Part shown: positions 1 to 59,278 of the stretch, piece by piece | Layout of the letters: every line of letters starts with the position of its first letter | How positions within the stretch are numbered: position 1 is the stretch's first letter | Source: Elusimicrobiales bacterium | GTDB lineage: Bacteria; Elusimicrobiota; Elusimicrobia; Elusimicrobiales; UBA9959 | Assembly (NCBI GenBank): GCA_028713125.1 | Contig: JAQTOU010000002.1 | Coordinates: forward strand, 462,583-526,582 | DNA length: 64,000 nucleotides | Direction: 5' to 3' | Notes under the pieces: model-generated | The model's database searches: none | Told to the model about the DNA's origin: nothing | What the model saw: only the letters and a program-made list of their open reading frames with translations | Position numbers and translations under genes: made by a program

Positions 1-3000
1 CCTATTCCGGCAGCAGCACCGGCGAGGAAGCCGGCTATGGTATAGCGGTCAATGGAAATAACGTTTATGTGACCGGCTCTTCCTATGAGCCCGGCGAAGC
101 TTCTTCCTTCTGGCTGGGCCGCTTCTCGGCGACTACCCTCGCCGCGCAGGGTACGGTCAAGAGGAGCTCCGATCCCACCGGCGGCTACGATGAGGCCGGC
201 TATGACGTGGTAGTGGACAGCCTGGGCTATGTCTTCGCGGCCGGCGCGCTGTACGGCGCGGATACGTATTCCCTGGACGCCGTGGTCATAAAGAGTTCCG
301 CCAACCTGGCGGCGGCGGACTGGGCCGGAGCGGCCTGGTACGGCAGCCAGGCCGGCGGCGCAGACGCGGCCTACGGCATTACCCTCGGCGCGGGGGCCGG
401 CGGCAATGTCAACGTGGCCGGTTATACCGAGCGCTACGATATAAACCAGGATAAGAACCTCTGGATCCGCAAGTTCGCCCACGACGGCTCCGAGCTGATG
501 ACGCAGGAATTCAATTCCAGCGCCCTGCCCGGCGACTATACCGGCGGTCCGAACTCAGACATGGGCTTCGACCTGGTGGCCGGCGGGGGCAACATAGCGG
601 TGAGCGGCAGGTTCAACGGCTATTACGGCATGTACCGCTACAAGCAGTCCAATACCCTTACGGTCAACCCGCTGCTGACAGTGGTTGTTTCCAGCGCCGC
701 CTGTTCATCCTGCGCCTCCTCGCCTTTCGCGGGAGTGGGCGTTTCCCTTATCCCCTACTCCCAGACCGGCGGCATCGACGCCTCCAGCATCAGGAGTTCC
801 GTCACCTCCCCTTCGGGGACGGCCTTCTTCCAAGTCCCGGCGGGCAAGCAGTATTTCATCGCGCTGGACAAGCAGGGCTATAGCCCGAATATAAAAGACC
901 AGCAGATGGACCCTTACGGCAGCTACTTCGTGCAGCTCGACGCGGATACTAATAAACAGTACACCCTGCAGCCGCGCCCGGCCAATGACCCGTATTACCC
1001 TCTCAGGGTGACGGTAACCTCGGCCACCGCCAGCGACTTTATAATGGCGGAAGTCTTCTTCACACAGACCGGCGAGAAAGCGGCCTACGGCATAGCGCAG
1101 GTCCCCGTGAACAGGAGCAGCGTGACCTTCACGGTCACCAATGTTCCTCCCATGGACGCCGGCGCTTATACGCTGGGCATAACCATCCCCGGCCGCGGCC
1201 TGTCGCGCAGCATCGTGATGGACGCGCTTTTCCCGCAGACCAGCTCTTACGCGGTCAATATGTCCACCTCGGCCGGCGCTATCTCGACCACCGGCGGCTT
1301 CGACGTCGGCGCCTCCACCACGCCGCCTTCAGTGGAAGGCGTGGTCAGGAGCGCCCAGACGAGGGCCCCGCTTGAAGAAGTGCGCGTCAGGATGTGGAAT
1401 TCCCCGCAGAACTGCAGCCCGGGCAGCCCCTGCATGGACTCCAACGTCTATGAGACGCTCACGGACGTGAACGGGAAGTACTCGTTCTACAATGTGGTAA
1501 GCACCGCGGCGATGTACAATTTGGCGGCGCAGAAGTCCGGCTACAAGCGGACCGGAGCCGGCATCAACATCTTCACCTCGACGGCGCCCACCGTCTACCG
1601 CGAATTCCAGCTGGAAGAGGCCACCTATACCCTGCGCGGCGTCATCCGCTACAGGGATATCCCGGTGCCCAACGCCGACGTCATGGTCTGGGGCGATTAT
1701 AACTGGTACGGCGGCTCCGACAGCTACCGCAACGGGCGCGGCCTGGAAACCGACGCCAGGACGCGGACGGCGGCCGACGGCTCCTTCGTCTTCAGCCCCG
1801 CCACCCTTAACGGCCTGCCTGACGGACAGCTCCGCATGAACGTGGCTTTCTTCGGAACCTGGGTGGACCTCAACGAGGGCAATAATAAGTCCAATTCCAT
1901 GGACGCCGACGACGTGCGCATCGTGATCTCCAGCGCCGGGGCCAAATGGAGCCCCAACAGCCCGGGCAACTGCGCGCCGGGCAGGGCCTGGAAGCTCCTG
2001 GCCCTCAGCGGTGTCTGCCATGGCTCCGGCGATGTCAACTTCAACATCATGCCCCAGGGGCAGAACGACTATGCCACGCTGAGCGGCTCCGTGACCTTCG
2101 TGACCACCTACCCGGTTACGGCGCTGAACCCGCTGGTAATTAGCTCCGTAACTCCCGTAACGGTGATGGCCATGCAGGAATGCAGCGGCGACTGTCTTAA
2201 CAGGTCCATGGGTTTCGCCGTGCTCAGCGGGACCTATACGGTCAATTCGGCCACCTACAGCATCACGCTGTCCACCGGCGTCTCCTACTACACGCGCATA
2301 ACTTCAAGCGAGTGGGGGGAAGTCAGCTCCTTCGACGACAGGGCAGATTTCCGCTCCACCGTCACGGCCTCGGTCGTCATGAACTTCGTAGTGACGAAAG
2401 CCGGTTCCATGAAGGGCGTAGTGAAGGCTCCGGACGGCTCCAACTACAAGCCGGCCAATAACCTCCCGGAGGCGCAGCGCCACAGCATTAATATAGAAGT
2501 GCGCGGCCAGAACGTGAACGTGAGCGAAGGCTGGAACGTGGACGACTACGGCGCCTTCGAGTTCCCCAACCTGGCGCCCGGCCTCTATACCGTGACCATG
2601 AGGCCGCAGGGCCTTGGTTTCCACTGGGCGGCTCCGGTGATGACGGACGTGGCGGTCGTGGCCGGGAAAACCACCCAGGTCACCCTGAAGCTGGAGGACG
2701 GCCTGGTGGTGCAGCCGCAGATCATAGGCCTGCCCGATATCTCCACGCCTACCTGGGCTTACGTGATAATCCCGGTGGAATCCGGCACGGAGATGAACCA
2801 GAAGAAGGTCACCGACCTCTTCTTCGGGGACAATACCTTCGCCTTCAACTATAGCACCACGACGCATACCTGGGACAAGAAGGTGATGCTTACCGGCCAG
2901 TACGACTTCTACCTGATGATGGGGGCGCGCTACAACCCGGAGGGCGGGAACGGCGAACCGCCGAGCTATGACCAGTTCGGCAACTTCATAGGCAAGGTGA

Positions 3001-5348
3001 AGGGCGTGGCCGTGCAGCGCGTCGAGTCCACGCCCAATCTGGGCACGGACTTCCAGCCCATCCCGGTAAGCATACTGGGCTCGCTGGGGCAGGACTCGTT
3101 CGAGGGCACTATCCTCGGCCGGCGAATCTACACGGACGCCGACCTGGATAAGATCTTCTCCAACTTCAACGAGATCATGCAGCTCATCCCGGCCGTCATG
3201 ATCTACGACGCGGCCGGGGACCTGCGCGGGTATACCGCCGGCCTGCCTACCGAGGCGGATTTCCAGGCCTTCGAAGATGCCCTGGAAACCAAGGACAAGG
3301 CCATCGTGAAGGCTTACTTCGCGGCGCACAGCGGCCGGTTCATGGTCTCTGGCCTGCCGCCCGGGCGCTATACCGTGGTCTTCTCCAACCCCAACTATCC
3401 CCCGATAGCCAAGGAACTGGACATACCGCTGGCGTCCTCCTATAACGGGAGCTACCCGTTCAGCTTCGACGAACAGAGCGTGCGCACCGGGGATATCTAC
3501 GGAACGGTCCGGAGCAGCGCCACCGGCGCCGGCCTGGGCGACGCCGTGGTCTACCTGAAGCACCGGACCGTGGAGAAGTTCACCAATACCCTGGCGGACG
3601 GCTCCTACTCCTTCGACAACCTGCCCCCCGGCATCTACCGCCTGGAGGTAACGCGCGAAGGTTTCGTGAAGACCGGGCAGAAGACCTCGCTTACGGGCTC
3701 GCTGACCGGCGACGACCAGGCGAACCTGGACTTCTACATGACGCCGTCGCAGTCCAATATGACCGGCAAGGTCTACCTGAGCAAGTTCCCGGCCCCGCTC
3801 ACCAAGTCCGGAGTGAAGATTGTCGCTTACGACGAGACTTACAATACCGAGCACCCGTCCGAGTACCTGCCCAAGATGGAAGCCACCACCAACGACGCCG
3901 GCGAGTATGAGCTGGCCGGAGTGGTTCCGGGACATAATTACAAAGTCTCCGCCTTCTACGGCAGCAAGCTGCCGGCCACGCTGGACGTCTCCAGCGAGAC
4001 CGTGACGGAAGGCGTCACCTACCTGCCGGACATTGTCCTGCGCGAGGTCCCGCCGCAGATCAAGGTGAAGGTCCGCAAGTCGCCGGATTCCGTCAACAAG
4101 GTGGACGTCACCATCAAGTCGCCAAAGCAGCTGGTCTCGACGCCGGTCTGCAAGGTGAACCCGGGCTCGGAGTACGTCCCGGGGACGGCGGTCAGCCTTG
4201 CGCTGGTCCCGGGCCCCAACAACACCTACCTGGGCCAGTTCACCGTGTCCAACAGCCAGGCGTTCTACAATGTCTACGTCAAGGCCGGCGACGGCAGCAA
4301 CAAGATGGAGAAATCCGTCACCTACAGCCCCAATAACCAGGCCAAGACCGAGCAGTACATCCAGGACGAGGCCATAAAGGGAGGCGAGGTGCAGATGGAC
4401 AAGGAGTCGGAGGAATATTCCGGCATAGAGCTGGACGCCGGCGGTTTGGCCTACTCCACCTTCAGCGCTTCCGGGGTCTCGGCTTACAGGACCTCAGCCT
4501 CGGGCGACCTGGTCGGCGGCTTCTTCAGCGCCCTGCCCTCGGTGCGCACCATAAAGACCGCCAAGGGCGACCTGAGCATCACGCAGGCCCTGCAGGACCT
4601 GATGGCTTCCGAGGTCTACAACATGGAGCTGGAGAACGCCTCCGCCAACAAGCCTTTCACGCTGACGCTCAAGTACGATAAGGAGAAGGCGGCGGACAAC
4701 AGCGACCTCCGCATCTACCAGTACGACGACGCTACCAGCGGCTGGAAAGAGGTCCCCGGCGACTACACGATAGACCCGATGCTGGGCGTGCTGTCCGTGG
4801 GGGTGGCCAGCCTGAACGACGCCTCGGTCGGGATCAGCGGCGCAAATACGCCGCTGGGCCGCAAGCGCTTCGGGATGAGCGCCGTGGTCAACGGCCGCTA
4901 CGTCCCGTCTGCCGCGGGTACTTCCCAGAGCGGGCGCTTCGCCGTATTCACGGCTAACCCTCCCACCGGTACGGCGGCGTTCAGTTCGGCGCTAGAGGTC
5001 TATAACCTGCCCAATCCGTTCAACCTCAAGAGCAAGAGGGTCACGCTGAGCGCGGACGTGGGCACGTCGGGGGTGGCCAATCCGTATCCCACGAACGGCA
5101 CGGTCATAAAGTATAACCTGCCCGCGGGCAAGACGGGTATGCTGAAGTTCGTCATCTACAATATGGCTGGCGAGAAGGTGCGCACAATAGACGAGGGCTC
5201 GCGCGCCGGCGGCCAGATCTACTACTCGGAATGGGACGGCAAGAACGACACTAACCAGGACTGCGCGTCCGGCGTGTACTTCATGCTGACCTACGTGGAC
5301 GGGAAGAAGCTGGGTACCAAGGCGCATAAGATGGCGATAATCAAATAG
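1..5348 (+). CDS. Giant secreted beta-propeller/CnaB-like repeat protein with C-terminal FlgD-like sorting domain (5' end outside window)
   Basis: The reading frame is open from base 3 upstream of any start codon, so the gene begins before the window. The first part (to about base 650) has SBBP-type propeller repeats with the motif GYGIAV..NNVYVTG. The middle holds several carboxypeptidase-regulatory/CnaB-like beta-sandwich repeats of the form G.V...TG..L....V.L....DG.Y.F.NLPPG.Y, for example near bases 3490-3680. The C-terminus (about 5000-5345) starts with YNLPNPFN and ends in an FlgD-like Ig domain (YNMAGEKVRTI, WDGKND, ASGVYF). Such tails act as cell-surface or type IX-like sorting domains in Bacteroidetes-Fibrobacteres relatives. 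A surface or secreted role is inferred; the ligand is unknown. The PorV-like gene follows 62 bases downstream. Confidence 0.85.
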   Translation, partial: YSGSSTGEEAGYGIAVNGNNVYVTGSSYEPGEASSFWLGRFSATTLAAQGTVKRSSDPTGGYDEAGYDVVVDSLGYVFAAGALYGADTYSLDAVVIKSSANLAAADWAGAAWYGSQAGGADAAYGITLGAGAGGNVNVAGYTERYDINQDKNLWIRKFAHDGSELMTQEFNSSALPGDYTGGPNSDMGFDLVAGGGNIAVSGRFNGYYGMYRYKQSNTLTVNPLLTVVVSSAACSSCASSPFAGVGVSLIPYSQTGGIDASSIRSSVTSPSGTAFFQVPAGKQYFIALDKQGYSPNIKDQQMDPYGSYFVQLDADTNKQYTLQPRPANDPYYPLRVTVTSATASDFIMAEVFFTQTGEKAAYGIAQVPVNRSSVTFTVTNVPPMDAGAYTLGITIPGRGLSRSIVMDALFPQTSSYAVNMSTSAGAISTTGGFDVGASTTPPSVEGVVRSAQTRAPLEEVRVRMWNSPQNCSPGSPCMDSNVYETLTDVNGKYSFYNVVSTAAMYNLAAQKSGYKRTGAGINIFTSTAPTVYREFQLEEATYTLRGVIRYRDIPVPNADVMVWGDYNWYGGSDSYRNGRGLETDARTRTAADGSFVFSPATLNGLPDGQLRMNVAFFGTWVDLNEGNNKSNSMDADDVRIVISSAGAKWSPNSPGNCAPGRAWKLLALSGVCHGSGDVNFNIMPQGQNDYATLSGSVTFVTTYPVTALNPLVISSVTPVTVMAMQECSGDCLNRSMGFAVLSGTYTVNSATYSITLSTGVSYYTRITSSEWGEVSSFDDRADFRSTVTASVVMNFVVTKAGSMKGVVKAPDGSNYKPANNLPEAQRHSINIEVRGQNVNVSEGWNVDDYGAFEFPNLAPGLYTVTMRPQGLGFHWAAPVMTDVAVVAGKTTQVTLKLEDGLVVQPQIIGLPDISTPTWAYVIIPVESGTEMNQKKVTDLFFGDNTFAFNYSTTTHTWDKKVMLTGQYDFYLMMGARYNPEGGNGEPPSYDQFGNFIGKVKGVAVQRVESTPNLGTDFQPIPVSILGSLGQDSFEGTILGRRIYTDADLDKIFSNFNEIMQLIPAVMIYDAAGDLRGYTAGLPTEADFQAFEDALETKDKAIVKAYFAAHSGRFMVSGLPPGRYTVVFSNPNYPPIAKELDIPLASSYNGSYPFSFDEQSVRTGDIYGTVRSSATGAGLGDAVVYLKHRTVEKFTNTLADGSYSFDNLPPGIYRLEVTREGFVKTGQKTSLTGSLTGDDQANLDFYMTPSQSNMTGKVYLSKFPAPLTKSGVKIVAYDETYNTEHPSEYLPKMEATTNDAGEYELAGVVPGHNYKVSAFYGSKLPATLDVSSETVTEGVTYLPDIVLREVPPQIKVKVRKSPDSVNKVDVTIKSPKQLVSTPVCKVNPGSEYVPGTAVSLALVPGPNNTYLGQFTVSNSQAFYNVYVKAGDGSNKMEKSVTYSPNNQAKTEQYIQDEAIKGGEVQMDKESEEYSGIELDAGGLAYSTFSASGVSAYRTSASGDLVGGFFSALPSVRTIKTAKGDLSITQALQDLMASEVYNMELENASANKPFTLTLKYDKEKAADNSDLRIYQYDDATSGWKEVPGDYTIDPMLGVLSVGVASLNDASVGISGANTPLGRKRFGMSAVVNGRYVPSAAGTSQSGRFAVFTANPPTGTAAFSSALEVYNLPNPFNLKSKRVTLSADVGTSGVANPYPTNGTVIKYNLPAGKTGMLKFVIYNMAGEKVRTIDEGSRAGGQIYYSEWDGKNDTNQDCASGVYFMLTYVDGKKLGTKAHKMAIIK

Positions 5349-45456: not shown

Positions 45457-46686
45457 ATGATCGACATCACAAAGAATATCGCCACCGCCCCCAGGCGCAC
45501 TAAAGCTTCCGTAATCCGCGAACTCCTGAAGATAACCAACAAGCCGGGAGTCATCTCATTCGCGGGCGGCCTGCCCGACCCCCAGCATTTCCCCTACGAT
45601 TTCGTCGCCAACTCCGTGAAGGAGATCATGGCAAAGCAGGGCAGGGTGGCCCTGCAGTACGGGCCCACCGACGGGCTGCCCGAACTGAAAGAGGAATTCA
45701 TAAAGTTCCTGCAGAAGCACGAAGGCATAACCGCCAAGCCGGAGAACCTTATCGTTACCACCGCCTCCCAGCAGGCGCTCGACATGGTAGGCCGCCTGTT
45801 CATAGACGCCTCCGACCCCGTGATCGTGGAAAAGCCCAGCTACATGGGCGGTCTCCAGGTCTTTAAATCCTACGGCTGCGAATTCGTGGGCGTGAAGCTG
45901 GAGGACGACGGGATAAGCACCGAGGAGCTCGAAGAGAAGCTGCTCTGGCTCAGGGCCCAGGACGAGCACTATAAGTTCCTCTACCTGGTCCCGGATTTCC
46001 AGAACCCCAGCGGCGTGACGCTTTCCCAGGAAAAGCGCAAGAAGGTCATCGAGCTTTCCGAAAAATACAATGTGGCAGTGATAGAGGATTCTCCCTACCG
46101 CCAGATACGCTTCGAGGGCAAGGCCCCGGAGATGCTCTACCGCCTGGACCAGAACAGCCGCAAGACCGACAATATCATCTCGCTGTTCACTTTCTCAAAG
46201 ACCTTCGCCCCGGGCCTGCGCCTCGGCATCATCCTCGCGCACCCGCAGATCATCAAGAAGATGGAGATCCTCAAGCAGTCGCTCGACCTCTGCACCTCCA
46301 GCCTCAACCAGCTGATCGCGGCGGACTTCCTCCGCTCCGGTTTCTTCGAGAAGCACATCGAGGTCATCAAGAAGACCTACAAGCTGAAGAAAGACACCAT
46401 GGTGGCCGCGCTGGAAAAATATATGCCGGAGGGCGTTACCTGGACGAAGCCGGAGGGCGGTCTCTTCCTGTGGGTGCGCCTGCCCGAGAGCATGAGCGCC
46501 GACGAGATGTTCGCGGACGCCCTGAAAGAGAACGTGGCCTACGTGATAGGGTCCGCTTTCCACAGCGACGGCTCGGGCAAGAACACTATGCGCCTGAATT
46601 TTTCCTATCCCACCCCGGAAGATATCGACGAGGGGATAAAGCGCCTCGCCACGGCCGTCAAAAAGCGCATGGTCGCGGCCAAGTAG
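45457..46686 (+). CDS. PLP-dependent class I aminotransferase (LysN/2-aminoadipate type)
   Basis: The 409-residue fold-type I enzyme shows VISFAGGLPDP, LQYGPTDGLPELKEE, TTASQQALDMVGR, the PDFQNPSGVTLS block and the PLP lysine in FTFSKTFAPGLRLG (near residue 248). This subgroup resembles the catalytic part of MocR proteins and LysN-type 2-oxoacid aminotransferases. A clear ribosome site (GGAGGAAC) precedes the ATG. The BMC pduS-like gene begins 16 bases after its stop, so it is probably the first gene of that operon. It has no encapsulation helix. Its substrate cannot be told from sequence. Confidence 0.85.
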   Translation: MIDITKNIATAPRRTKASVIRELLKITNKPGVISFAGGLPDPQHFPYDFVANSVKEIMAKQGRVALQYGPTDGLPELKEEFIKFLQKHEGITAKPENLIVTTASQQALDMVGRLFIDASDPVIVEKPSYMGGLQVFKSYGCEFVGVKLEDDGISTEELEEKLLWLRAQDEHYKFLYLVPDFQNPSGVTLSQEKRKKVIELSEKYNVAVIEDSPYRQIRFEGKAPEMLYRLDQNSRKTDNIISLFTFSKTFAPGLRLGIILAHPQIIKKMEILKQSLDLCTSSLNQLIAADFLRSGFFEKHIEVIKKTYKLKKDTMVAALEKYMPEGVTWTKPEGGLFLWVRLPESMSADEMFADALKENVAYVIGSAFHSDGSGKNTMRLNFSYPTPEDIDEGIKRLATAVKKRMVAAK

Positions 46687-46702: not shown

Positions 46703-48046
46703 ATGTCCGACTTCTCAGCCGAATTCAGCCGAAACCTGCGCAGCGCCGGAGTGGTAGGAGCCGGCGGCGCGGGTTTTCCTTCCTATGTGAAAGCGCAGGG
46801 GCGGGCCGAGTACGCTCTGGTGAACGCGGCCGAATGCGAACCTCTCCTTAAAAAGGACCAGAAGATACTTGAATACTTCCCCGGGAAGGTTTTCGACGGG
46901 CTCGAGTTGCTTATGCGCGCCGTGGGCGCGAAAAAAGGGATAGTCGGCATAAAGAAAAAGCACGAGAGGCTCATCCCGCGCCTCGAGGAAATAGCGAAGG
47001 GCAGGAAAAACATCTCGGTCCTGAAGCTGGGCGATTATTATCCCGCCGGCGACGAACAGTGCCTGGTCCTCGAGGCTACTGGCCGCGTGGTCCCGCCCGG
47101 CGGCATCCCGCTGGACGTCGGCTGCGTGGTCTGCAATGTGGAGACCCTCTACAACGCGGCTTTTCCCGGCAGGCCCGTCACCGAAACTTTTATAACCGTG
47201 AACGGAGCGGTGAAAAAGCCGGCCACTTTCCGGGTTCCTGTCGGCATAACCTGGCGCGAGGCCGTAGAGCTCTGCGGCGGCTTCACGGTAAAGGACCCGG
47301 CCTATATCGACGGCGGGCCGATGATGGGCAAGGTCATGACGGATTTCGAAGCGCCGGTAGTCAAAGCCTCGGGCGGCATCGTGGTCCTCCCCAAAAACCA
47401 TCCCCTTATCGTTAAAAAATCGCAGAGCCGGCCCGTCTTCACCCGTGTGGGGCGTTCCACCTGCGACCAGTGCTCTTTCTGCACCGAGTTCTGCCCGCGC
47501 TACCTGCTCGGGCATAATGTGCAGCCGCACCGCGTGATGCGCACCATGCTTTTTTCCGGCGGGCCGGAACATAAACTGCACAGCCAGTACGGCCTGCTCT
47601 GCTGCGAATGCTCGCTTTGCAGTCTCTACTCCTGCCCCGAGGGCCTCAACCCCCGGGAAGCCTGCGTCTCGGCCAAGTCGGACCTCCGCGAGCTGAAAAT
47701 GGGCTTTAAGAATTCTACGCTGAACACCGGCCGCGCTCCTCAGGTCCATCCCGTGCGCGATTTCAGAAAGGTCCCGGTTTCTAAGCTTATCAAGCGCCTC
47801 GGTCTCGAGGACTACAATAAAGACGCTCCCTGGGCCGACATCTCTTATAAACCGGCCAAGGTTAAAATTTTAATGAGCCAGCATATCGGCGTTCCCTGCA
47901 GTCCCTCGGTCAAAGAGGGGCAGCGGGTCGAGAAAGGCGCGGTGGTGGGGGACGTCCCCGCCGATAAACTGGGCTGCCCGGTGCACGCGAGCATCTCCGG
48001 CGCCGTCGGAAAGGTCAATGAAAAATACGTGGAGATAATCGCTTAA
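46703..48046 (+). CDS. pduS: PduS-like RnfC-family flavin/iron-sulfur electron-transfer protein of the BMC
   Basis: The 447-residue protein opens with the RnfC/NuoF-type glycine-rich site (GVVGAGGAGFPSYVK; NAAECEPLLKKD) that binds NADH and FMN. A SLBB-type segment follows, then two ferredoxin clusters: CDQCSFCTEFCP near residues 254-265 and CCECSLCSLYSCPEG near 300-315. The C-terminus is a barrel-sandwich (RVEKGAVVGDVP). PduS of propanediol microcompartments reduces cobalamin and partners with shell protein PduT. No cobalamin enzyme is visible here, so it more likely re-oxidises NADH made by the aldehyde dehydrogenase. The pduT-like gene starts 8 bases downstream. Confidence 0.88.
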   Translation: MSDFSAEFSRNLRSAGVVGAGGAGFPSYVKAQGRAEYALVNAAECEPLLKKDQKILEYFPGKVFDGLELLMRAVGAKKGIVGIKKKHERLIPRLEEIAKGRKNISVLKLGDYYPAGDEQCLVLEATGRVVPPGGIPLDVGCVVCNVETLYNAAFPGRPVTETFITVNGAVKKPATFRVPVGITWREAVELCGGFTVKDPAYIDGGPMMGKVMTDFEAPVVKASGGIVVLPKNHPLIVKKSQSRPVFTRVGRSTCDQCSFCTEFCPRYLLGHNVQPHRVMRTMLFSGGPEHKLHSQYGLLCCECSLCSLYSCPEGLNPREACVSAKSDLRELKMGFKNSTLNTGRAPQVHPVRDFRKVPVSKLIKRLGLEDYNKDAPWADISYKPAKVKILMSQHIGVPCSPSVKEGQRVEKGAVVGDVPADKLGCPVHASISGAVGKVNEKYVEIIA

Positions 48047-48054
48047 GGGTTATT

Positions 48055-48603
48055 ATGTTAAACGCAATCGGCGGGGTTGAACTCTCGAGCGTGGCGAAGG
48101 GCCTGGAAGCGGCCGACGCCATGCTGAAAACTTCCAATATAAAGCTGCTTCTGTCGCGCTCGATCTGCCCCGGCAAGTATATCATCCTGCTGGCCGGAGA
48201 CGTGGGCGACGTGAACGCGGCCGTGGAAGCCGGAACCTCGAAGGCCGCGCACGCCCTCGTGGACAGCTTCGTTATCGCCAATATCCATCCCGACGTTTTT
48301 CCGGCCATAGCTGGAACCACCGTGGTCGAGGGCCTCGAGGCCCTCGGCATAATAGAGGCCTTCTCCGTTTCCGCCCTGGTAGAGGCCGCCGACGCCGCCG
48401 TAAAAGCCGCGCCCGTTAAACTCCTTGAGATCCGCCTCGCCATGGCGCTGGGCGGGAAAGCTTTCGTAACCCTGACCGGCTCCGTGGCCGCCGCCGAAAC
48501 CGCGGTGGCCGCCGGCGCCGCCGTGGTAGCCAAAAAAGGCCTGCTGGTGGAAAAAGTAGTCATCCCCCAGCCCAGGCAGGAGCTCCTCAGGGAGATAATT
48601 TAG
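48055..48603 (+). CDS. pduT: BMC-T shell protein, PduT-like with cluster-ligand cysteine
   Basis: The 182-residue protein has two BMC domains (AIGGVELSSVAKGLEAADAMLK and [21 protein letters not shown]). It aligns along its length with PduT, including SICPGKYIILLAGDV and SFVIANIHPDVFPAI. Cys38 sits in SICPGKY, the position whose three copies in the PduT trimer hold a [4Fe-4S] cluster at the pore. Standing next to pduS, it is the likely transshell electron conduit. Confidence 0.92.
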   Translation: MLNAIGGVELSSVAKGLEAADAMLKTSNIKLLLSRSICPGKYIILLAGDVGDVNAAVEAGTSKAAHALVDSFVIANIHPDVFPAIAGTTVVEGLEALGIIEAFSVSALVEAADAAVKAAPVKLLEIRLAMALGGKAFVTLTGSVAAAETAVAAGAAVVAKKGLLVEKVVIPQPRQELLREII

Positions 48604-48678: not shown

Positions 48679-49458
48679 ATGGCTTCGAACAAACGGACAC
48701 CCCTTATCGCAGGCAACTGGAAGATGCATCTCACCTCGAAAGAGGCCGCGGACCTCGCCGCCGCCATAAAGAAAGGGCTCGATCCCGATCTTAAACACGA
48801 GGTTCTCCTCGCTCCCGGTTTTACCTGCCTTCACGCCGTAAAAGCCGCGCTTGCCGGTTCTAAAGTTTTCCTCTCCTCGCAGGACGTGGCCTGGGAAGAA
48901 AAAGGCGCTTTCACCGGGGCCGTTTCCCCGTCGCAGATCATCGACGCCGGCTGCACTCACGCTATCATCGGCCATTCCGAGCGCCGCAAGATCTTCCTCG
49001 AGACGGACGAGGTCATAAACAAGAAAGTGAAAGCCGCTATAAAGGCCAATATCGTGCCCGTGCTCTGCATAGGCGAAACCCTCGAGGAGCGCGAGAGCCA
49101 GAGAACCTACCGCGTGCTAGAGACCCAGCTCAACGGAGCTTTCGCCGGCATCACCGCCGCCGAGGCCTCCAAAGTCGTCATCGCCTACGAGCCCGTCTGG
49201 GCCATCGGCACCGGCAAGACCGCCACTCCCGACCAGGCGCAGGACGCCCACGTTTTCGTGCGCAAACAGATGGAGCGCATTTACGGCCAGCCCTACGCCG
49301 AGGCCGTGCGCGTGCTTTACGGCGGTTCGGTGAAAGCCGATAACGTCGACGAACTTATGGCCCAGCCCGATATCGACGGCGCGCTGGTGGGCGGCGAGAG
49401 CCTTAAGGCCGACAAGTTCCTGCGCGTCATACATTTCCAGGCGGTGCTTAGCAGATAA
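48679..49458 (+). CDS. tpiA: Triosephosphate isomerase within the BMC locus
   Basis: The 259-residue enzyme has all TIM signatures: GNWKMH with the catalytic lysine, IIGHSERR with the catalytic histidine, AYEPVWAIGTGKTA with the catalytic glutamate and LYGGSVKADN. Length is close to normal and there is no encapsulation helix, so it may work outside the shell or be the housekeeping copy captured by the operon. Functionally it would convert the glyceraldehyde-3-phosphate released by DeoC to dihydroxyacetone phosphate. One base separates it from pduL. Confidence 0.95.
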   Translation: MASNKRTPLIAGNWKMHLTSKEAADLAAAIKKGLDPDLKHEVLLAPGFTCLHAVKAALAGSKVFLSSQDVAWEEKGAFTGAVSPSQIIDAGCTHAIIGHSERRKIFLETDEVINKKVKAAIKANIVPVLCIGETLEERESQRTYRVLETQLNGAFAGITAAEASKVVIAYEPVWAIGTGKTATPDQAQDAHVFVRKQMERIYGQPYAEAVRVLYGGSVKADNVDELMAQPDIDGALVGGESLKADKFLRVIHFQAVLSR

Positions 49459-49459
49459 A

Positions 49460-50092
49460 ATGGACGAGAAGCTGCTGAAAGAAATACTCGAGGACCTGAA
49501 GCTCCGGCAGGAGCGTTCGGCTCTGTCCGTCCCCGTGGGCATCTCCAACCGGCACGTCCACCTGACAAAAGAGGATTTCAAGACCCTGTTCGGAGCGGAA
49601 GCCGAAGACACCCAGCTCAAAGCTGTGAAGCAGCCCGGCCAGTACGCCTGCAATGAGCGGGTGACCGTGGAGGGGCCCAAGGGCGTCCTGAAGGACGTCC
49701 GGATGATAGGGCCGTACCGGAAATACAGCCAGGTGGAAGTTTCGCTGGGGGACGCGCGCAGGCTGGGCGTGGAGCCGCCGATCCGGGACTCCGGCAAGCT
49801 GGAGAATTCTCCTGGCATCAGGCTCTCGGGGCCGAAAGGTTCGGTCGCTATCAGGCAGGGCCTGATCCTGTCCAAGAGGCACATCCATTTCAACGTTAAG
49901 GAAGGCGCGGCGTACAAGGTCAGGGACGGCCAGGAAGTGCGCGTGCTCTGCGGCCGCGGCACGGAGCGCGAGACGATTTACGAAAGGGTGCTCTGCCGCG
50001 TTTCCGACGCTTACTCGCTGGAGCTGCACCTCGACGTGGAAGAAGCCAACGCCGCCGGGCTCAGGAACGGCGACGGGGCGTACATAGTCTGA
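49460..50092 (+). CDS. pduL: PduL-type phosphotransacylase with N-terminal encapsulation helix
   Basis: The 210-residue protein has the two PduL barrels with their zinc histidines: GISNRHVHLTKEDF (His32, His34) and LSKRHIHFNVKEG. Residues 1-17 (MDEKLLKEILEDLKLR) form an amphipathic helix of the kind that targets cargo into BMCs. It converts acetyl-CoA plus phosphate to acetyl-phosphate and recycles CoA inside the shell. The start is fixed by the one-base gap to tpiA. Confidence 0.95.
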   Translation: MDEKLLKEILEDLKLRQERSALSVPVGISNRHVHLTKEDFKTLFGAEAEDTQLKAVKQPGQYACNERVTVEGPKGVLKDVRMIGPYRKYSQVEVSLGDARRLGVEPPIRDSGKLENSPGIRLSGPKGSVAIRQGLILSKRHIHFNVKEGAAYKVRDGQEVRVLCGRGTERETIYERVLCRVSDAYSLELHLDVEEANAAGLRNGDGAYIV

Positions 50093-50133: not shown

Positions 50134-50418
50134 ATGGACGCACTTGGAATGATAGAGACGAAGGGCCTCGTGGCCTGCGTGGAAGCGGCCGACGCCGCCG
50201 TGAAAGCCGCCAATGTTAAAATTGTCGGTTACGAGAAGGTCGGTTCCGGCCTGGTGACCATCCTTTTCAGGGGCGAAGTCGCCGCCTGCCGCGCCGCCTG
50301 CGATTCCGGCGCCGCCGCCGCCCAGAAAGTCGGGGAGCTCGTGAGCGTGCACGTGATACCGCAGCCCCACGGCGACCTGGAAGGCAAGCTGCCGATAAGC
50401 GACAACAAGAAGAAATAG
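50134..50418 (+). CDS. BMC-H hexameric shell protein (PduA/PduJ type)
   Basis: The 94-residue single BMC domain starts [26 protein letters not shown] and has the pore loop EKVGSGLVT, then the edge motif [11 protein letters not shown]. It would tile the facets and carry small metabolites through its pore. It shares most of its core with the second BMC-H at 54947 but has a basic C-terminal tail (SDNKKK). The ribosome site AGGAGG is strong. Confidence 0.96.
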
Positions 50419-50524: not shown

Positions 50525-50830
50525 ATGCTTTTTGCACGAGTAGTGGGCAATGTGGTCTGCACCCGCAAGGACGACAAGCTTGTGGGTACGAAGCTGCTGA
50601 TGGTGCAGCCGGTGGGCCTGGACGACAAGCCGCGCGGCAATACGCTGGTCGGCATCGACGCCGTCGGCGCCGGCACCGGCGAACTGGTCCTGCTGGTGCA
50701 GGGCTCCAGCGCGCGCCAGACCTCGAAGACGGAGAACACCCCGGTAGACTGCACTATTTTCGCCATTGTGGACACTATCGAGAAAGAAGGCAAAGTGGTG
50801 TTCACCAAATCAGTAGGTAAGATGCAGTAA
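50525..50830 (+). CDS. BMC-P pentameric vertex protein (EutN/CcmL family), first copy
   Basis: The start is placed at ATG 50525, eight bases behind GGAGG; an in-frame upstream codon gives no conserved residues. The 101-residue product has MLFARVVGNVVCTRKDDKLVGTKLLMVQP, GNTLVGIDAVGAGTGELVLLVQGSSAR and DCTIFAIVDTIE, the EutN/CcmL plan. It caps the shell vertices. Confidence 0.95.
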   Translation: MLFARVVGNVVCTRKDDKLVGTKLLMVQPVGLDDKPRGNTLVGIDAVGAGTGELVLLVQGSSARQTSKTENTPVDCTIFAIVDTIEKEGKVVFTKSVGKMQ

Positions 50831-50842
50831 AGCGGAGCTCTT

Positions 50843-52258
50843 ATGCCTATCAGCGAAGAAGAACTTAAAAAAATAGTGGCCGAGGTCGTCAGGAATCTCG
50901 CGCCCCAGGCCGAAGCCTCCTCCGCTGCCCCTTCGGGCGGGCCGGTTTTCGACACGGTGGATGAAGCCGTAAACGCGGCGGAAGCCGCCCAGCCGGTATT
51001 CCAGGACCTTGGCCTCGATGCCCGCGAAAAGATCATAGCCGCGATGCGCGAAACCTCCCGCGCCAACGCCAGGCGCTGGGCCGAAGCCGCCGTGGCCGAG
51101 ACCGGCATGGGCCGCGTGGCTGACAAGGTGCTCAAGAACCTGGTGTGCGCGGACAATACGCCCGGCGTGGAAGACCTCCGCGCGGTGGCCTATACCGGCG
51201 ACAAGGGCATGACCCTGGTCGAGTACGCGCCTTTCGGCGTGGTAGCCGCCATAACCCCTTCCACCAATGCCGTAGCCACTATCGTAAGCAACGCCATCGG
51301 GATTCTCTCCGCCGGTAATTCCGTAGTGTTCTCTCCCCATCCCGCCGCCAAAGGCTGCGTGGCCGACGCGGTCCGCCTGCTCGATAAAGCTATCGTGGCC
51401 GCGGGCGGGCCGGCGAATCTGATCACGACCATAGCCAAGCCCACCCAGGAAGCCACCAAACAGCTTTTATGTCACCCTAAGGGCCGGATGAATATCGTCA
51501 CCGGCGGCCCGGCCATAGTGAAAGTGGCTATGACGGCCGGCAAGGCCTGCAAGACCATAGCCGCCGGCCCGGGCAACCCGCCCATCGTCGTGGACGAGAC
51601 GGCCGTTTTTCCCGACTGCGCCGCCGAGATCATATCCGGCTGCGGTTTCGATAATAACGTTCTTTGTATCGCCGAGAAAGAAGTGATAGTGACGGAGGCG
51701 GCCCGCGCGCGCTTCCTCGAAGCAATGCGCCGGGACCACCGCGCCCATGAACTTACCGCCGCGCAGATGTCCCAGCTCACAAAGCTCGCCATCCTGGAGC
51801 CCGGCCCGGAGCCGAAGATCAACCGCGACTTCATCGGCAAGAACCCGTCGGTGATCGCCAGGTCCATAGGCCTGAACCTTTCCGACGATATCCGCGTGCT
51901 CTGGGCCGAGGTGTCCAACGACCATCCTTTCGTCGTCAGCGAGCAGCTGATGCCGGTGCTGCCGGTCACCGTCTCGCGCGATATCGACGCCGCCATAGAA
52001 CTGGCGTATCTCGTAGAGGGCGGCCACCACCACACGGCGGGGATGTACTCCACCAATATCAAGAACATGACGAAGATGAGCCGCCGCATGGCCTGCTCCA
52101 TCTTCGTCAAGAACGGCTGCACGCTCCACGGGCTGGGGCTGGGCGAAGGCTACGCCTCCATGTCCATCGGCACGCCCACCGGGGACGGCATCACCAAGAC
52201 CAGCCATTTCGTGCGGCCGCTGCAGTGCAGCGTGGTCGGAGATTTCAGGATAGCTTAA
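50843..52258 (+). CDS. pduP: CoA-acylating aldehyde dehydrogenase (PduP/EutE type) with encapsulation helix
   Basis: The 471-residue enzyme has an N-terminal amphipathic helix (SEEELKKIVAEVVRNL, residues 4-19), a Pro/Ala linker, and then the ALDH fold. It shows AAITPSTNAVATIVSNAI, IVTGGPAIVKVAM, AGPGNPPIVVDE and catalytic Cys275 in GFDNNVLCIAEKE. It oxidises acetaldehyde to acetyl-CoA with NAD+. The helix closely matches that of DeoC ([14 protein letters not shown]), so both enzymes probably share one docking site in the lumen. It lies 12 bases after the first BMC-P gene. Confidence 0.95.
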   Translation: MPISEEELKKIVAEVVRNLAPQAEASSAAPSGGPVFDTVDEAVNAAEAAQPVFQDLGLDAREKIIAAMRETSRANARRWAEAAVAETGMGRVADKVLKNLVCADNTPGVEDLRAVAYTGDKGMTLVEYAPFGVVAAITPSTNAVATIVSNAIGILSAGNSVVFSPHPAAKGCVADAVRLLDKAIVAAGGPANLITTIAKPTQEATKQLLCHPKGRMNIVTGGPAIVKVAMTAGKACKTIAAGPGNPPIVVDETAVFPDCAAEIISGCGFDNNVLCIAEKEVIVTEAARARFLEAMRRDHRAHELTAAQMSQLTKLAILEPGPEPKINRDFIGKNPSVIARSIGLNLSDDIRVLWAEVSNDHPFVVSEQLMPVLPVTVSRDIDAAIELAYLVEGGHHHTAGMYSTNIKNMTKMSRRMACSIFVKNGCTLHGLGLGEGYASMSIGTPTGDGITKTSHFVRPLQCSVVGDFRIA

Positions 52259-52269
52259 GGAGAATTTCT

Positions 52270-52818
52270 ATGCAGGCAAATATCTCGCTCGGACTTGTTG
52301 AAACCTCGTCGATAGCCAGGGGCATAGAGGTCCTGGACGCAATGTGCAAGGCCGCGGGCGTAAAGCCCGAGGTGCACCAGGCCATCTCCAAGGGAAAATA
52401 TATCATCGTCATCTCCGGCCCCCTGGGCGAAGTGGAATCCTCCCTGGCCAAAGGCCGGGAGATCGGCGGCAATACCGTGATCGCCAGCCATATCATCCGC
52501 AACGTGCACTCAGGAGCGCTGGCCGCGCTCAACAAGAAAGTTAAGGCGGAGAAGATCGAGGCCGTGGGCATCGTAGAGACTAAAGAAGCTTTGCCGGCCC
52601 TTTTCGCCGCCGACGCCGCGGCCAAGGCGGCTTTCGTGCACGTGGCCGAAGTGAATACCGGCAAGGGTATAGGCGGCAAAGGCTATTTCACCGTGGTGGG
52701 GGAGCCGGGCGCAGTTCGCACCGCCGTCTCGGCGGGCGTAAAGGCCATAGGCGAGGACGCCGTGGTGAGCCGCATAGTCATACCCAACGCGCACGCGCAT
52801 ATCGGCGCGGCGATCTAG
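52270..52818 (+). CDS. BMC-T tandem-domain shell protein, no cluster cysteine
   Basis: The start at 52270 follows AAGGAG; a longer frame overlapping the dehydrogenase is not needed. The 182-residue protein has two BMC domains (LGLVETSSIARGIEVLDAMCKAAGV; AVGIVETKEALPALFAADAAAKAAF). The first pore loop is AISKGKYIIVISG, with no cysteine where the PduT-like paralogue has one. It would form a trimeric facet tile with a distinct pore, maybe for larger substrates such as sugar phosphates. Confidence 0.93.
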   Translation: MQANISLGLVETSSIARGIEVLDAMCKAAGVKPEVHQAISKGKYIIVISGPLGEVESSLAKGREIGGNTVIASHIIRNVHSGALAALNKKVKAEKIEAVGIVETKEALPALFAADAAAKAAFVHVAEVNTGKGIGGKGYFTVVGEPGAVRTAVSAGVKAIGEDAVVSRIVIPNAHAHIGAAI

Positions 52819-52827
52819 GAGCTATTT

Positions 52828-53274
52828 ATGAGATTAGTCATAGGCGCGGACCACGCTGGCTTCGAGGCGAAGGAAAAACTTAAGAAGTTCCTCCTTGGCC
52901 TCGGCCATGAAGTGATGGATTTCGGCTGCTACTCCACCGAGCCGGTGGATTTCCCGGATATAGCGCTGCTCGTCAGCGAAGCCGTGCGCAAAAAAGAATT
53001 CGACAGGGCCGTGCTGGTGGACGGCTTTAACGGCGCGATGCCGCTGGCCGCCAACAAGGTGCACGGCATACGCGCCGTGGCCGCCTACGATATTATTTCG
53101 GCCCGCTTCGCTTCCGCCCACGAGGACTGCAACGTCCTTTGTCTCGGCGGCAAGACGCACGGAGAGCTGGCCCTGCAGGAGATGGTCAAGGTCTGGCTCA
53201 ATACCCCTTTCGAAGGCGGCAAGTACCAGAAGCGCCTGGACAAGATAACGGCGATAGAACAGCGCTGCTGCTGA
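52828..53274 (+). CDS. RpiB/LacAB-family sugar-phosphate isomerase-like protein with altered catalytic loop
   Basis: The 148-residue protein aligns without gaps to RpiB: GADHAGFEAKEKLK (Asp8, His9), DFGCYS, DFPDIA, AANKVHGIRA, His98 in SAHED and FEGGKYQKR (Arg136). The catalytic loop CGTGIG is replaced by DGFNGA, so Cys65 is Asp, Thr67 is Phe and two glycines are lost; Arg132 is Lys. Cysteine is the usual proton-transfer base in RpiB, while some homologues use another acid. It may isomerise a different sugar phosphate, use Asp65 as base, or only bind ligand. It sits amid shell genes but has no encapsulation helix. Confidence 0.85.
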   Translation: MRLVIGADHAGFEAKEKLKKFLLGLGHEVMDFGCYSTEPVDFPDIALLVSEAVRKKEFDRAVLVDGFNGAMPLAANKVHGIRAVAAYDIISARFASAHEDCNVLCLGGKTHGELALQEMVKVWLNTPFEGGKYQKRLDKITAIEQRCC

Positions 53275-53281
53275 ATTTTAA

Positions 53282-53581
53282 ATGAAACAGGCAAAGGTAA
53301 TAGGACGGGTTTTCTGCTCGCAGCAATGCTGCGGCATGGAGCAGAAGACGATGCTGCTTATCCAGCCGTTGGACTGGGAGACGGACAAGCCGGCGGGAGA
53401 CCCGCTGGTGGCCTGCGATACCGTGGGCTCCGGCTCCGGTGAAACTGTTTTTTTCGTCGCCTCGCGCGAGGCCATACTCGCTTTCGAAGGCTGGGAAGGG
53501 GAAACGGCCGTCGGCGCCCTCCCTCCCCCGATAGACGCGGCGATAGTGGGAATAATAGACGGGAAGACAATAAAGATCTGA
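53282..53581 (+). CDS. BMC-P vertex protein, second copy, with Cys cluster
   Basis: The 99-residue EutN/CcmL-family protein reads KVIGRVFCSQQCCGMEQKTMLLIQPLDW then ACDTVGSGSGETVFFVASREA. Cys12, Cys16 and Cys17 lie in the loop after the first strand, where the paralogues have charged residues (CTRKDDK, ATRKHPG). A pentamer would present a ring of up to fifteen cysteines. Whether they bind metal is unknown. Confidence 0.92.
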   Translation: MKQAKVIGRVFCSQQCCGMEQKTMLLIQPLDWETDKPAGDPLVACDTVGSGSGETVFFVASREAILAFEGWEGETAVGALPPPIDAAIVGIIDGKTIKI

Positions 53582-53623: not shown

Positions 53624-53911
53624 ATGTTCATAGCAAAAGTTATCGGCAATGTCTGGGCCACCCGCAAACACCCGGGACTGAAGAACGCGACCATGCTGCT
53701 GGTTAAGGCCGTGGATCCGATGGACGGGAACAAGCTCGTCGGAGAGGCCACGCTGGCCATAGACGGGAACCAGGGGGCTGGAACCGGCGACACGGTGCTG
53801 ATAGTGGACGAGGGCGGCTCCGCCAGGAAGATCTTGAAGAACCCGAAAGCGCCGGTGCGCACCTTGATAGCCGGCATAGTGGACAAGGTTCACATTACAG
53901 GGAAGGAATAA
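53624..53911 (+). CDS. BMC-P vertex protein, third copy
   Basis: The 95-residue EutN/CcmL-family protein shows [51 protein letters not shown] and [11 protein letters not shown]. It is nearest to the first copy. Three vertex paralogues in one locus is the usual pattern for SPU-like and Haliangium-type shells. DeoC begins two bases after its stop. Confidence 0.95.
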
Positions 53912-53913: not shown

Positions 53914-54921
53914 ATGAACGACGAAGATATAAAGAAAATAGCCGCCGAAGTGGCCAGGATAATGAAGGCCGGCGGGCAGTCCGCCCCGCGGCAGACGCTC
54001 GGGGATTCCGTAAGCATCGGCTCCGCCGGCAAGGTCTTTCAGCATCCGCTCCTGAATCCGGCCGGAAATTTCAGCGGGACGGCAAAGCCCGCCGCCTCCG
54101 CTCCCAAAGCCTGCTCCGGCCAGGGCGACTGCCGCCTGGAAGAAAACACCTGCAGCTCCTCCTGCCAAAGCTGCAATCCGCTGACCAACTACACGCCCCA
54201 GCAGGTAAAGGCCAGCGTCGACCGCGTCAGTTTCTGCAACCCCAACGAAGCCAGCAACTCGATCGCCGGCATGATAGACCATACCCTGCTCAAGGCCAAC
54301 GCCACGCAGGAGGAGATCGGCAAGCTCTGCGAGGAAGCCCGCAAATACCGCTTCGCCTCGGTCTGCGTCAACCCCGGCTACGTCGCGATGGCGTCCCGCC
54401 TGCTGCGCGGTTCCGGCGTGATGGTCTGCACCGTGATCGGTTTCCCTCTCGGTTCCACCACGCCGACCGTCAAGGCCATCGAGGCCCGCGACGCCATAGC
54501 CAACGGCGCCGACGAGATAGACATGGTCATCAATATCGGCGCGCTCAAGTCCGGCAGCGACCAGCTCGTGCTGGACGATATAAAAGCGGTGCGCGAAGCC
54601 ACCCGCGGCAAAACGCTCAAGGTTATCCTTGAGACCTCCTACCTTACCAGGGACGAGAAGATCCGCGCCTGCAAAATGTCCAAGCTGGCCCAGGCCGATT
54701 TCGTGAAGACCTCCACCGGCTTCGGCTCCGGCGGGGCGACCCCCGAGGACATCGCGCTGATGCGCGAGACCGTGGGCCCCGAGATGGGCGTGAAGGCCTC
54801 CGGCGGGATCAAGAACGCGGAAGTGGCCGCGGCCATGATAAAGGCCGGCGCCACCCGCCTCGGAACCAGCGCGAGCATAGCCATAGTTTCCGGCGGGGAA
54901 GCCGCCAAAGGGCAGTACTAA
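53914..54921 (+). CDS. deoC: Deoxyribose-phosphate aldolase with encapsulation helix and Cys-rich linker
   Basis: The 335-residue protein is about 110 residues longer than housekeeping DeoC at its N-terminus. Residues 3-18 ([16 protein letters not shown]) form an encapsulation helix like that of the aldehyde dehydrogenase. A linker follows with Cys67, 73, 80, 84 and 87 (plus Cys108). The DeoC barrel starts near 113 ([16 protein letters not shown]) and keeps Asp203 (EIDMVIN), the Schiff-base Lys265 (VKTSTGFG) and Lys294 (GVKASGGI). It cleaves deoxyribose-5-phosphate to acetaldehyde and glyceraldehyde-3-phosphate and is the probable signature enzyme of this BMC. Confidence 0.95.
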
Positions 54922-54946: not shown

Positions 54947-55243
54947 ATGTCAGAACCGAAAGAAGCGTTAGGAATGATAGAGACCAAGGGTTTCATAGGC
55001 ATGATAGAGGCCTCCGACGCCATGTCGAAGGCCGCCAAGGTACGCCTGCTCGGCTACGAGAAGATAGGCTCGGGTTACGTCACCACCCTGTGCGCGGGCG
55101 AAGTCGGGGCCGTGCGCGCCGCCGTGGAAGCCGGCGCCGCCGCCGCCCAGAAGGCTGGAGAGCTCGTAGGGATGCACGTAATCCCGCGCCCTTCCGACGA
55201 CCTGGATAAATACCTCGCGAAGATCTCGGTAAAAGTAAGCTAG
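54947..55243 (+). CDS. BMC-H hexameric shell protein, second copy
   Basis: The 98-residue single BMC domain reads [26 protein letters not shown], with pore loop EKIGSGYVT and edge motif [14 protein letters not shown]. It lacks the basic tail of the first copy. Two BMC-H paralogues allow mixed facets with different pore properties. It follows deoC by 25 bases. Confidence 0.96.
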
Positions 55244-55324: not shown

Positions 55325-55567
55325 ATGCTTACCAAGGGCGCCGTCGAAGACATCATAATGCAGCACCTCGCCGGCAGAGCGGGGGTAGCGGCGCCCGCGG
55401 CTAGAAAAGCCCCGGAGCTGAAAAGGAAGGTCTTCCTCAGCGACTGGGAACTGCGCCGGATATATATCCCCGGTTCAAAGTCCGTCCAGGTCCCCGCTGA
55501 TTCGATAATAAGCCCTCTTTCGCTCGACTGGCTGGATTACGACGGGATAAAGGTTGTGCGCGAATAG
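55325..55567 (+). CDS. Small BMC-associated protein with encapsulation-like N-terminus
   Basis: The 80-residue protein starts with a short amphipathic helix (TKGAVEDIIMQHLAG), then an Ala/Pro linker, then a compact domain: KVFLSDWELRRIYIPGSKSVQVPADSIISPLSLDWL. This second part resembles the small N-terminal module found in EutT-like and other BMC proteins (FLTE.DLR....P.g....TP.A...L), an assignment made by eye. It could be a cargo adaptor or scaffold. It ends the BMC gene cluster. Confidence 0.7.
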   Translation: MLTKGAVEDIIMQHLAGRAGVAAPAARKAPELKRKVFLSDWELRRIYIPGSKSVQVPADSIISPLSLDWLDYDGIKVVRE

Positions 55568-58096: not shown

Positions 58097-59278
58097 TTAT
58101 ATAATGTTCAGCTCTTTGCCGACTTTCCTGAATTTCTCCACCGCGAATTCAAGGTCCTTTATAGTGTGCCCTGCAGTGACTATCGTGCGCAGGCGCTCTT
58201 TGCCCTTCGGCACGGTAGGGAAGCCGAGGGCGAGCGCGAAGACGCCCTCTTCGAAAAGGCGGGTAGAGAATTCCACGGCTTTCGCCGTCATGATCGGGGT
58301 GATGGGCGTTACCGAGGCGCCAGTGTCGAAGCCGGCTTTCTTAAGCTCTTCCTTCAGGAAAGCGGTGTTGGCCCAGAGATTTTTCAGGTGCTGCGGCTCG
58401 GTCAGCAGGATCTCCAGGACCGCCAGGGAGGTGGCCGCCACCGACGGCGGCTGGGAGCTTGAGAACAGGAAGGGCCTGGCCACCGAGCCCATATAGTCCC
58501 TCAGGCTCTGCGTCGTCGCCGCGTAGCCTCCTACCGAGGCGAAAGCCTTTGAAAGCGTTCCTATCTGTATTTCCACCTTTCCGTCGAGGCCGAAGTGGCT
58601 CACAGTGCCCCTGCCTTCTTTGCCTATCACTCCGCTGGCGTGCGCGTCGTCCACCATCACGAAAGCTCCGTATTTGTGCGCTACGGCCACCACTTCATCG
58701 AGGTTGGCTATGTCGCCGTCCATCGAGAACACGCCGTCGGTCACCACCATCTTGCGGCGCGCGCTCCTGGCTTCCGGGGTTTCGAGTATCTCGGCCAGGT
58801 GCTTTATGTCCTTGTGGCGGTAGATCTTCCGCGGGGCCTTCGCCAGGCGCGCCCCGTCGATGATGGAGGCGTGGTTGAGCTCGTCGGAGATAAGCAGGTC
58901 GGTCTCGCTGGACATCAGCGACTGGCAGACGGCGACGTTGGAGGTGAAGCCGGACTGGAACAGGATCGAGGCCTCGGCGTGCTTGAACTCCGAGAACTTC
59001 CTCTCCAGCTCCTGGTGTATCGACATGGTGCCGATGATGGTGCGCACCGCGGCGGAGCCGACGCCGTATTTTTCTATGGCTTCGATGGCGGCCTTTTTTA
59101 CCTTCGGGTTATTGGCCAGCGCGAGATAATTATTGGAGGTGAGGTTCACTACTTTCTTGCCGTCGATGACGGAGACGGGCTCCTGCGCCGACTCGAGCAC
59201 GCGGGGCCTGATAAAGCGGTTTTCCTTTTTAAGCGCGGCAACTTCCTCGTCGGCGAATTTCAGCGTGTCGAATTGCAT
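58097..59278 (-). CDS. kbl: Glycine C-acetyltransferase / 8-amino-7-oxononanoate synthase-like alpha-oxoamine synthase
   Basis: The 393-residue PLP enzyme has LTSNNYLALANNPKV, GSAAVRTIIGTMSIHQELE, DDAHASGVIG and the PLP lysine Lys244 in TLSKAFASVGGY. Family members (Kbl, BioF, HemA, SPT) condense an acyl-CoA with an amino acid. The overall match is closest to Kbl, which makes 2-amino-3-ketobutyrate from glycine and acetyl-CoA. No tdh or bio genes lie nearby, so substrate assignment is tentative. A ribosome site (GGAAGGGAG) precedes the ATG. Confidence 0.85.
   Translation of the reverse strand: MQFDTLKFADEEVAALKKENRFIRPRVLESAQEPVSVIDGKKVVNLTSNNYLALANNPKVKKAAIEAIEKYGVGSAAVRTIIGTMSIHQELERKFSEFKHAEASILFQSGFTSNVAVCQSLMSSETDLLISDELNHASIIDGARLAKAPRKIYRHKDIKHLAEILETPEARSARRKMVVTDGVFSMDGDIANLDEVVAVAHKYGAFVMVDDAHASGVIGKEGRGTVSHFGLDGKVEIQIGTLSKAFASVGGYAATTQSLRDYMGSVARPFLFSSSQPPSVAATSLAVLEILLTEPQHLKNLWANTAFLKEELKKAGFDTGASVTPITPIMTAKAVEFSTRLFEEGVFALALGFPTVPKGKERLRTIVTAGHTIKDLEFAVEKFRKVGKELNII

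Follow-up and report, generated by a model that had tools for sequence, protein, structure and literature searches.

A PduS-PduT gene pair as a candidate for an optional electron valve in an Elusimicrobiota SPU microcompartment

What does a PduS-PduT pair do at the head of a BMC locus in which we found neither an alcohol dehydrogenase (ADH) nor a B12-dependent enzyme? The question arises in the window, by which we mean the whole 64,000-nucleotide stretch of DNA analysed here, where the PduS and PduT ORFs lie on the same (+) strand, 8 bases apart, ahead of a set of shell-protein and enzyme genes. A preliminary description had proposed that electrons from NADH made by the aldehyde dehydrogenase leave through PduS and PduT, and had tied the presence of the pair to the missing ADH. 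The question whether electrons cross a microcompartment shell via PduT goes back to 2010. The genes of the locus are as follows.

45457-46686, + strand: aminotransferase class I/II, 16 bases 5' of PduS (PF00155, synteny)
46703-48046, + strand: PduS-like flavo-iron-sulfur NADH oxidoreductase, 447 aa (Pfam domains, eight invariant cysteines, AF2 model)
48055-48603, + strand: PduT-like shell protein, predicted trimeric (BMC-T), with Cys38 at the pore, 182 aa (two PF00936 domains, fold match)
48679-49458, + strand: triosephosphate isomerase, TIM (PF00121; TIGR00419 above cut-off)
49460-50092, + strand: PduL phosphotransacylase with EP-like N-terminus (PF06130; NF011652 above cut-off; moment 0.44)
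50134-50418, + strand: BMC-H shell protein 1 (PF00936)
50525-50830, + strand: BMC-P vertex protein 1 (ORF, kept in related loci)
50843-52258, + strand: CoA-acylating aldehyde dehydrogenase, AldDH, with EP-like N-terminus (NF011927 at 567.7 bits, above cut-off; moment 0.64)
52270-52818, + strand: second BMC-T shell protein, BMC-T2, with Ser or Ala and never Cys at the pore (two PF00936 domains, pore column)
52828-53274, + strand: RpiB sugar-phosphate isomerase (TIGR00689 and NF004051 above cut-off)
53282-53581, + strand: BMC-P vertex protein 2 (ORF, conserved)
53624-53911, + strand: BMC-P vertex protein 3 (EutN/CcmL-like)
53914-54921, + strand: DeoC deoxyribose-phosphate aldolase with EP-like N-terminus (TIGR00126 at 292.5 bits, above cut-off; moment 0.70)
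54947-55243, + strand: BMC-H shell protein 2 (PF00936 match in own genome)
55325-55567, + strand: small conserved protein of 80 aa, the last gene of most loci (no Pfam match)

DeoC, RpiB and AldDH occur together within this shell-protein locus, the combination that marks SPU loci, and by gene content it is an SPU locus as Axen 2014 and Sutter 2021 use the term. It is the single BMC locus of its own genome, and no B12-dependent signature enzyme of the Pdu or Eut type was found in or near it. Like described SPU loci, it carries DeoC, RpiB, AldDH, PduL and BMC-H, BMC-T and BMC-P proteins and has no ADH, and it shares TIM with the Atribacteria SPU locus. It differs from them in its Elusimicrobiota host (Sutter 2021 does not use the word 'Elusimicrobiota' in its main text) and in the placement of the pair, which stands at the operon head in its own family and is unlinked or absent in others. 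The named relatives of the locus are Elusimicrobia or Elusimicrobiota MAGs. Short amphipathic N-termini resembling encapsulation peptides (EP-like) were present on DeoC, AldDH and PduL only; an assembled shell around the enzymes of the locus is predicted. The compartment is predicted to burn DNA sugar.

The PduS-like protein has the domain order PF01512-PF10531-PF13534-PF13375 with the RnfC_N-like domain C-terminal, as in PduS, and the two expected tetracysteine motifs (C254-C257-C260-C264 and C300-C303-C306-C311). Its glycine-rich NADH/FMN site reads GAGGAGFP. ORFs, domains and motifs thus agree with the preliminary description of an RnfC-like PduS, 8 bases 5' of PduT, with two 4Fe-4S motifs. 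We rejected assignment to RnfC itself, as the protein scores 221.5 bits against TIGR01945, below the curated NCBIfam cut-off of 245.95, and its barrel domain is C-terminal (383-442) rather than N-terminal. The AlphaFold model (pLDDT 93.5) had as its best Foldseek match the RnfC subunit of Rnf complexes, and also matched NuoF. Across 50 PduS sequences with 34-100% identity to the window's PduS, none of the eight cluster cysteines varies, nor does the glycine-rich motif, and the invariance of the cysteines of both PduS and PduT was found again in more diverse alignments of 40 and 39 sequences. Nine cysteines have been mutated in Citrobacter PduS (C54, C264, C267, C270, C274, C309, C312, C315 and C320; PMC2982820), and their equivalents by spacing in the window's protein (C45, C254, C257, C260, C264, C300, C303, C306 and C311) are all invariant. 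NADH reduces the Citrobacter protein, which carries FMN and two [4Fe-4S] clusters, reduces cobalamin and co-purifies with PduT (PMC2982820); by analogy, we predict FMN and [4Fe-4S] binding, NADH oxidation and PduT binding for the protein encoded here. Axen 2014 suggested that PduS itself might reduce the aldehyde to an alcohol, in place of an ADH (PMC4207490). This suggestion from the literature is barely credible for the window's protein, which has no alcohol-dehydrogenase domain and whose fold is that of an RnfC/NuoF NADH-FMN module plus a ferredoxin.

PduT consists of two BMC domains, with Cys38 inside the motif SRSICPGKY. Its nearest solved relatives by sequence are 3nwg and the PduT entries 3n79 and 3pac. 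Alignment placed Cys38 on Cys38 of 3pac and on Ser38 of the C38S mutant 3n79, which bears out its earlier assignment to the pore position. The window's protein conforms to the published PduT pore motif, C-(P/S/A)-G-(K/R/S)-(Y/F) (PMC6325248). Cys38, Gly40, Lys41 and Tyr42 do not vary among 47 distinct PduT sequences that are 44-100% identical to the window's PduT, so the loss of Cys38 in relatives, which the preliminary description had named as evidence that would count against it, was not seen. The paralogous BMC-T at 52270 served as an internal control and never had a cysteine at the pore wherever the motif was readable. Because Cys38 is invariant in the 47 PduT and the eight cluster cysteines in the 50 PduS, and the paralogue has no pore cysteine, these features are not due to chance. 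The AlphaFold model of the monomer (pLDDT 93.8) matched 3pac in Foldseek with a TM score of 0.92 and has the PduT subunit fold. On the strength of homologues, a [4Fe-4S] cluster is predicted at the pore.

The pair as a whole resembles PduS-PduT of the Pdu systems of Salmonella and Citrobacter in the four PduS domains, the nine cysteines, Cys38 within CPGK, gene adjacency and fold. Unlike a Pdu locus, however, the window's locus has no diol dehydratase or PduO, and its PduT scores 136.2 bits against the NCBIfam equivalog TIGR02526, under the cut-off of 250.3; as this cut-off is a naming threshold, we label the protein PduT-like. Two other known systems are also close. The isethionate compartment of Bilophila wadsworthia is likewise acetaldehyde-oxidising and has PduS-PduT with no B12 enzyme or ADH, but it uses a glycyl radical enzyme rather than an aldolase, and sulfite respiration is a possible acceptor there (PMC8667426). 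For the Listeria eut compartment, a PduT-like shell protein has similarly been proposed to pass electrons to extracellular electron transfer; that locus differs in being an EUT locus with the EutG alcohol dehydrogenase, and the genetic evidence there concerns Ndh2 and does not extend to the shell protein (PMC8547011).

We hold with moderate confidence that PduS-PduT is an optional NADH-to-cytosol electron valve of the SPU microcompartment, by a mechanism modelled on homologues. AldDH and PduL would convert acetaldehyde to acetyl-phosphate, making NADH in the lumen. PduS, presumably encapsulated and attached to PduT on its lumen side, would oxidise this NADH by its FMN and pass electrons one at a time along its two [4Fe-4S] clusters. 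From there, electrons would move to a cluster held by the three Cys38 residues in the PduT pore and on to a cytosolic acceptor. The pair would be an auxiliary route, used for overflow or under specific conditions. One point against this reading is that no microcompartment is known to us to transfer electrons from PduS via PduT to an acceptor in the cytosol. The potentials reported for the studied proteins, about -262/-150 mV for PduS and +99 mV for PduT (PMC2982820), run downhill from NADH and count in favor of the valve. Against it we also count that the +99 mV of the studied PduT cluster is high for the carriers of an anaerobe and that sequence does not reveal which way the electrons flow. 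The idea of a conduit is not new (PMC8667426, PMC2982820, PMC6325248, PMC4207490). Electron export by PduS-PduT was proposed by Parsons 2010 (PMC2982820) and discussed for GRMs by Ferlez 2019 (PMC6325248), and the Bilophila study of 2021 made the same argument, from no ADH and no B12 to an NADH outlet via PduS-PduT (PMC8667426). The phylum-wide comparison and the cassette behaviour described below were not found in the literature that we compared.

The direction of flow could also be the reverse. AldDH would then use NADH to make acetaldehyde, which DeoC would condense with glyceraldehyde-3-phosphate. Electrons would move inward through PduT and PduS, or the two would not be needed for NADH. 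Both DeoC and AldDH can in principle run either way, which counts for such a direction. It was proposed for Atribacteria by Nobu 2016, according to a passage in PMC6281690. We consider it quite unlikely here, since a +99 mV cluster such as that of the studied PduT is ill suited to reducing NAD+ (PMC2982820) and a 5'-nucleotidase gene beside related loci fits nucleotide breakdown. PduL and TIM in the operon also fit the oxidative way, without excluding the other.

We then considered the rest of the genome, where the preliminary description's two statements of absence, true of the BMC locus, do not carry over. The cell is free neither of B12 enzymes nor of alcohol dehydrogenases. There is one Fe-ADH genome-wide, a protein of 381 aa that starts directly with its enzyme domain; its best match is the YqhD-like PRK15138 (258 bits against a 645-bit cut-off), with EutG lower at 113 bits. 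Being YqhD-like, on a different contig from the BMC locus and with no N-terminal extension, it was rejected as a hidden BMC-ADH. Two Zn-type MDR dehydrogenases also lack an N-terminal extension or targeting peptide; we read one as threonine-dehydrogenase-like, and the other adjoins a gene that we read as pyruvate-decarboxylase-like. Neither EutB nor an AdhE-sized Fe-ADH was found genome-wide. The preliminary description had held that a BMC-targeted ADH or a BMC B12 enzyme elsewhere in the genome would speak against it, and searches for EutB, AdhE, Fe-ADH and Zn-ADH turned up neither.

The genome does encode a PduO-type adenosyltransferase and gives 18 B12-binding matches, so 'no B12 enzyme' is true of the locus only. 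These genes raise the alternative that PduS is a corrinoid reductase for the cell's adenosyltransferase, as in Pdu, with PduT only tethering PduS. The adenosyltransferase (PF01923) is present in 23 of the 23 genomes of the genus searched, this one included, and the studied PduS reduces cobalamin (PMC2982820). However, the enzyme lies on contig C26 and the BMC locus on C15, the genome has no EutB and no second BMC locus, and the invariant pore cluster ligand of PduT would be left unexplained. We regard this alternative as distinctly improbable.

If the pair were instead the main, compulsory NADH outlet, replacing the missing ADH in SPU compartments, it should accompany the compartment. The nearest genomes are consistent with this: PduT is present in 32 of the 35 BMC-bearing genomes of the family among the 61 nearest, and the three exceptions (G008, G032 and G033) have contigs that end inside the BMC locus, so we did not count them as losses. 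The window's locus, with no ADH or B12 enzyme, in a genome where no ADH bears a targeting peptide, also favors a compulsory outlet, as does the same proposal for Bilophila (PMC8667426). The wider phylum does not follow this pattern. Among 341 Elusimicrobiota genomes, 122 had BMC-T, and 78 of these were good genomes (at least 90% complete, at most 5% contamination). PduT is absent from 20 of the 78, which show only non-Cys BMC-T. PduS is absent from all 20 as well and present in 12 of 12 pair-having controls, so that in each of the 32 genomes tested the two proteins occurred together or were both missing. Two further loci that had seemed pair-free (L143 and L146) were set aside, because the pair is located elsewhere in both genomes. 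That the absences come from draft metagenome assemblies counts against the valve, even with a completeness of 90% or more for each of the 20.

We read the BMC locus in 17 of the 20 pair-free genomes. TIM, PduL, AldDH, BMC-T2, RpiB and DeoC occur together in 15; of the other two, one stops at a contig edge (G203) and one is broken by insertions (G193). No ADH was found in any of the 17. Several candidate replacements were rejected: a gene of about 200 aa before TIM has no Pfam match and is no recognisable oxidoreductase, a gene of about 430 aa between AldDH and BMC-T2 in L109 is MORN/CsgG-like, and the paralogous BMC-T has no pore cysteine where the motif is readable. Zn-ADH-like genes flanking 6 of 44 Elusimicrobia loci were likewise rejected as BMC-ADHs, as they lie on the opposite strand, beyond the BMC genes, and have no extension. 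They are about 25% identical to the own genome's Zn-ADH and are probable threonine dehydrogenases; a seventh locus (L116) gave a weak Zn-ADH match only.

The relation between the pair and ADH, which the preliminary description had expected to be one of substitution, came out the other way when its proposed co-occurrence check was run across Elusimicrobiota. A genuine Fe-ADH (more than 90 bits) was found in 2 of the 20 pair-free genomes versus 13 of 20 pair-having ones (Fisher p 0.0008, for genomes that are related by descent), leaving 18 pair-free genomes with no genuine Fe-ADH anywhere. A tree-based test had too few independent pairs for significance, with a trend that also runs against substitution. 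In another Elusimicrobiota genome, an EUT locus (L229, with EutA and EutH) has an Fe-ADH gene alongside PduS and PduT. The SPU loci of Axen 2014 all lack AlcDH, and PduS was reported only in the Atribacteria ones, again with no B12 enzyme (PMC4207490). A compulsory outlet is thus unlikely. What stands of the original proposal is that every sequence feature needed for a relay from NADH over FMN and [4Fe-4S] to a shell cluster is there, invariant where the pair is present; the explanation of the pair by a missing ADH is not supported. Since relatives run the same compartment with neither the pair nor a recognised ADH, the pair is better seen as auxiliary than as compulsory for NAD+ regeneration.

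We also compared where the pair lies. In the window's own family it heads the BMC locus, and in other Elusimicrobiota families, in Muiribacterium and in Clostridia it lies 3' of AldDH. Elsewhere it forms a two-gene unit on a contig other than that of the BMC genes (G061, G062, G134, G176, G178, G191, G192, G194, G197-G199, G205, G218, G221, G222, G239, G242 and G243). Even far from the BMC locus, the two genes stay adjacent. On an AldDH tree, the presence of the pair changes at least five times, three of them on strongly supported branches; this is a parsimony count on a tree of AldDH rather than of species, and it does not distinguish gain from loss. On the same tree G204, which lacks the pair, groups at very short distance with G205 and G218, which have it.

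That the pair is dispensable in many relatives would suit an option raised in Axen 2014, by which it is a functionless remnant inherited from a Pdu- or Eut-type locus. This reading is already disfavoured, and we consider it very improbable: the eight cluster cysteines, the glycine-rich site and Cys38 are invariant over 34-100% identity, and the pair has been kept together after leaving the BMC locus in several lineages. We tentatively suggest instead, as something quite possible, that the pair is a plug-in valve that has been repeatedly added or dropped, and that pair-free SPU compartments with no ADH need another, unrecognised way to recycle NAD+. If so, the redox balance of a compartment would be evolvable by a single two-gene cassette. 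The comparison separates two questions that are usually merged, as the pair is strongly constrained where present and the compartment is kept without the pair or a recognised ADH. Sister species that differ in the pair, G204 against G205 or G218, lend themselves to natural comparison, and the loci without it hint at a further, unexplained way in which SPU compartments regenerate NAD+.

Several other features of these loci were noted. The order aminotransferase-PduS-PduT, with the gene at 45457-46686 in first place, holds in most of the family, and in L140 the aminotransferase is at the opposite end of the BMC locus; in L177, L234 and L237 other aminotransferase-like genes adjoin the unlinked pair. 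Several kilobases of unrelated genes separate PduT from TIM in L089 (2741-10226), L090 (4691-9974) and L091 (1221-6902), and such insertions occur in several species of the genus. A pair-free locus, L219, has a 5'-nucleotidase gene (PF02872, PF00149) and a gene for a protein of about 200 aa before TIM (2221-4365); nucleotide scavenging that feeds the SPU pathway fits the position of the nucleotidase beside pair-free loci. After the BMC region of the window, a gene on the - strand (58097-59278) reads like 2-amino-3-ketobutyrate CoA ligase, and the matching flank of related loci holds a probable threonine dehydrogenase.

The 80-aa protein at 55325-55567 closes nearly all Elusimicrobiota SPU loci at 28-89% identity; a relation to EutT was considered and dropped, there being no detectable similarity. 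In other Elusimicrobiota families, a second RpiB-like gene adjoins the first (L227, 8641-9564; L231, 7591-8923). Finally, many loci in one group of families encode a zinc-ribbon-like protein of about 107 aa between DeoC and BMC-H2, as in L213 (10578-10898).
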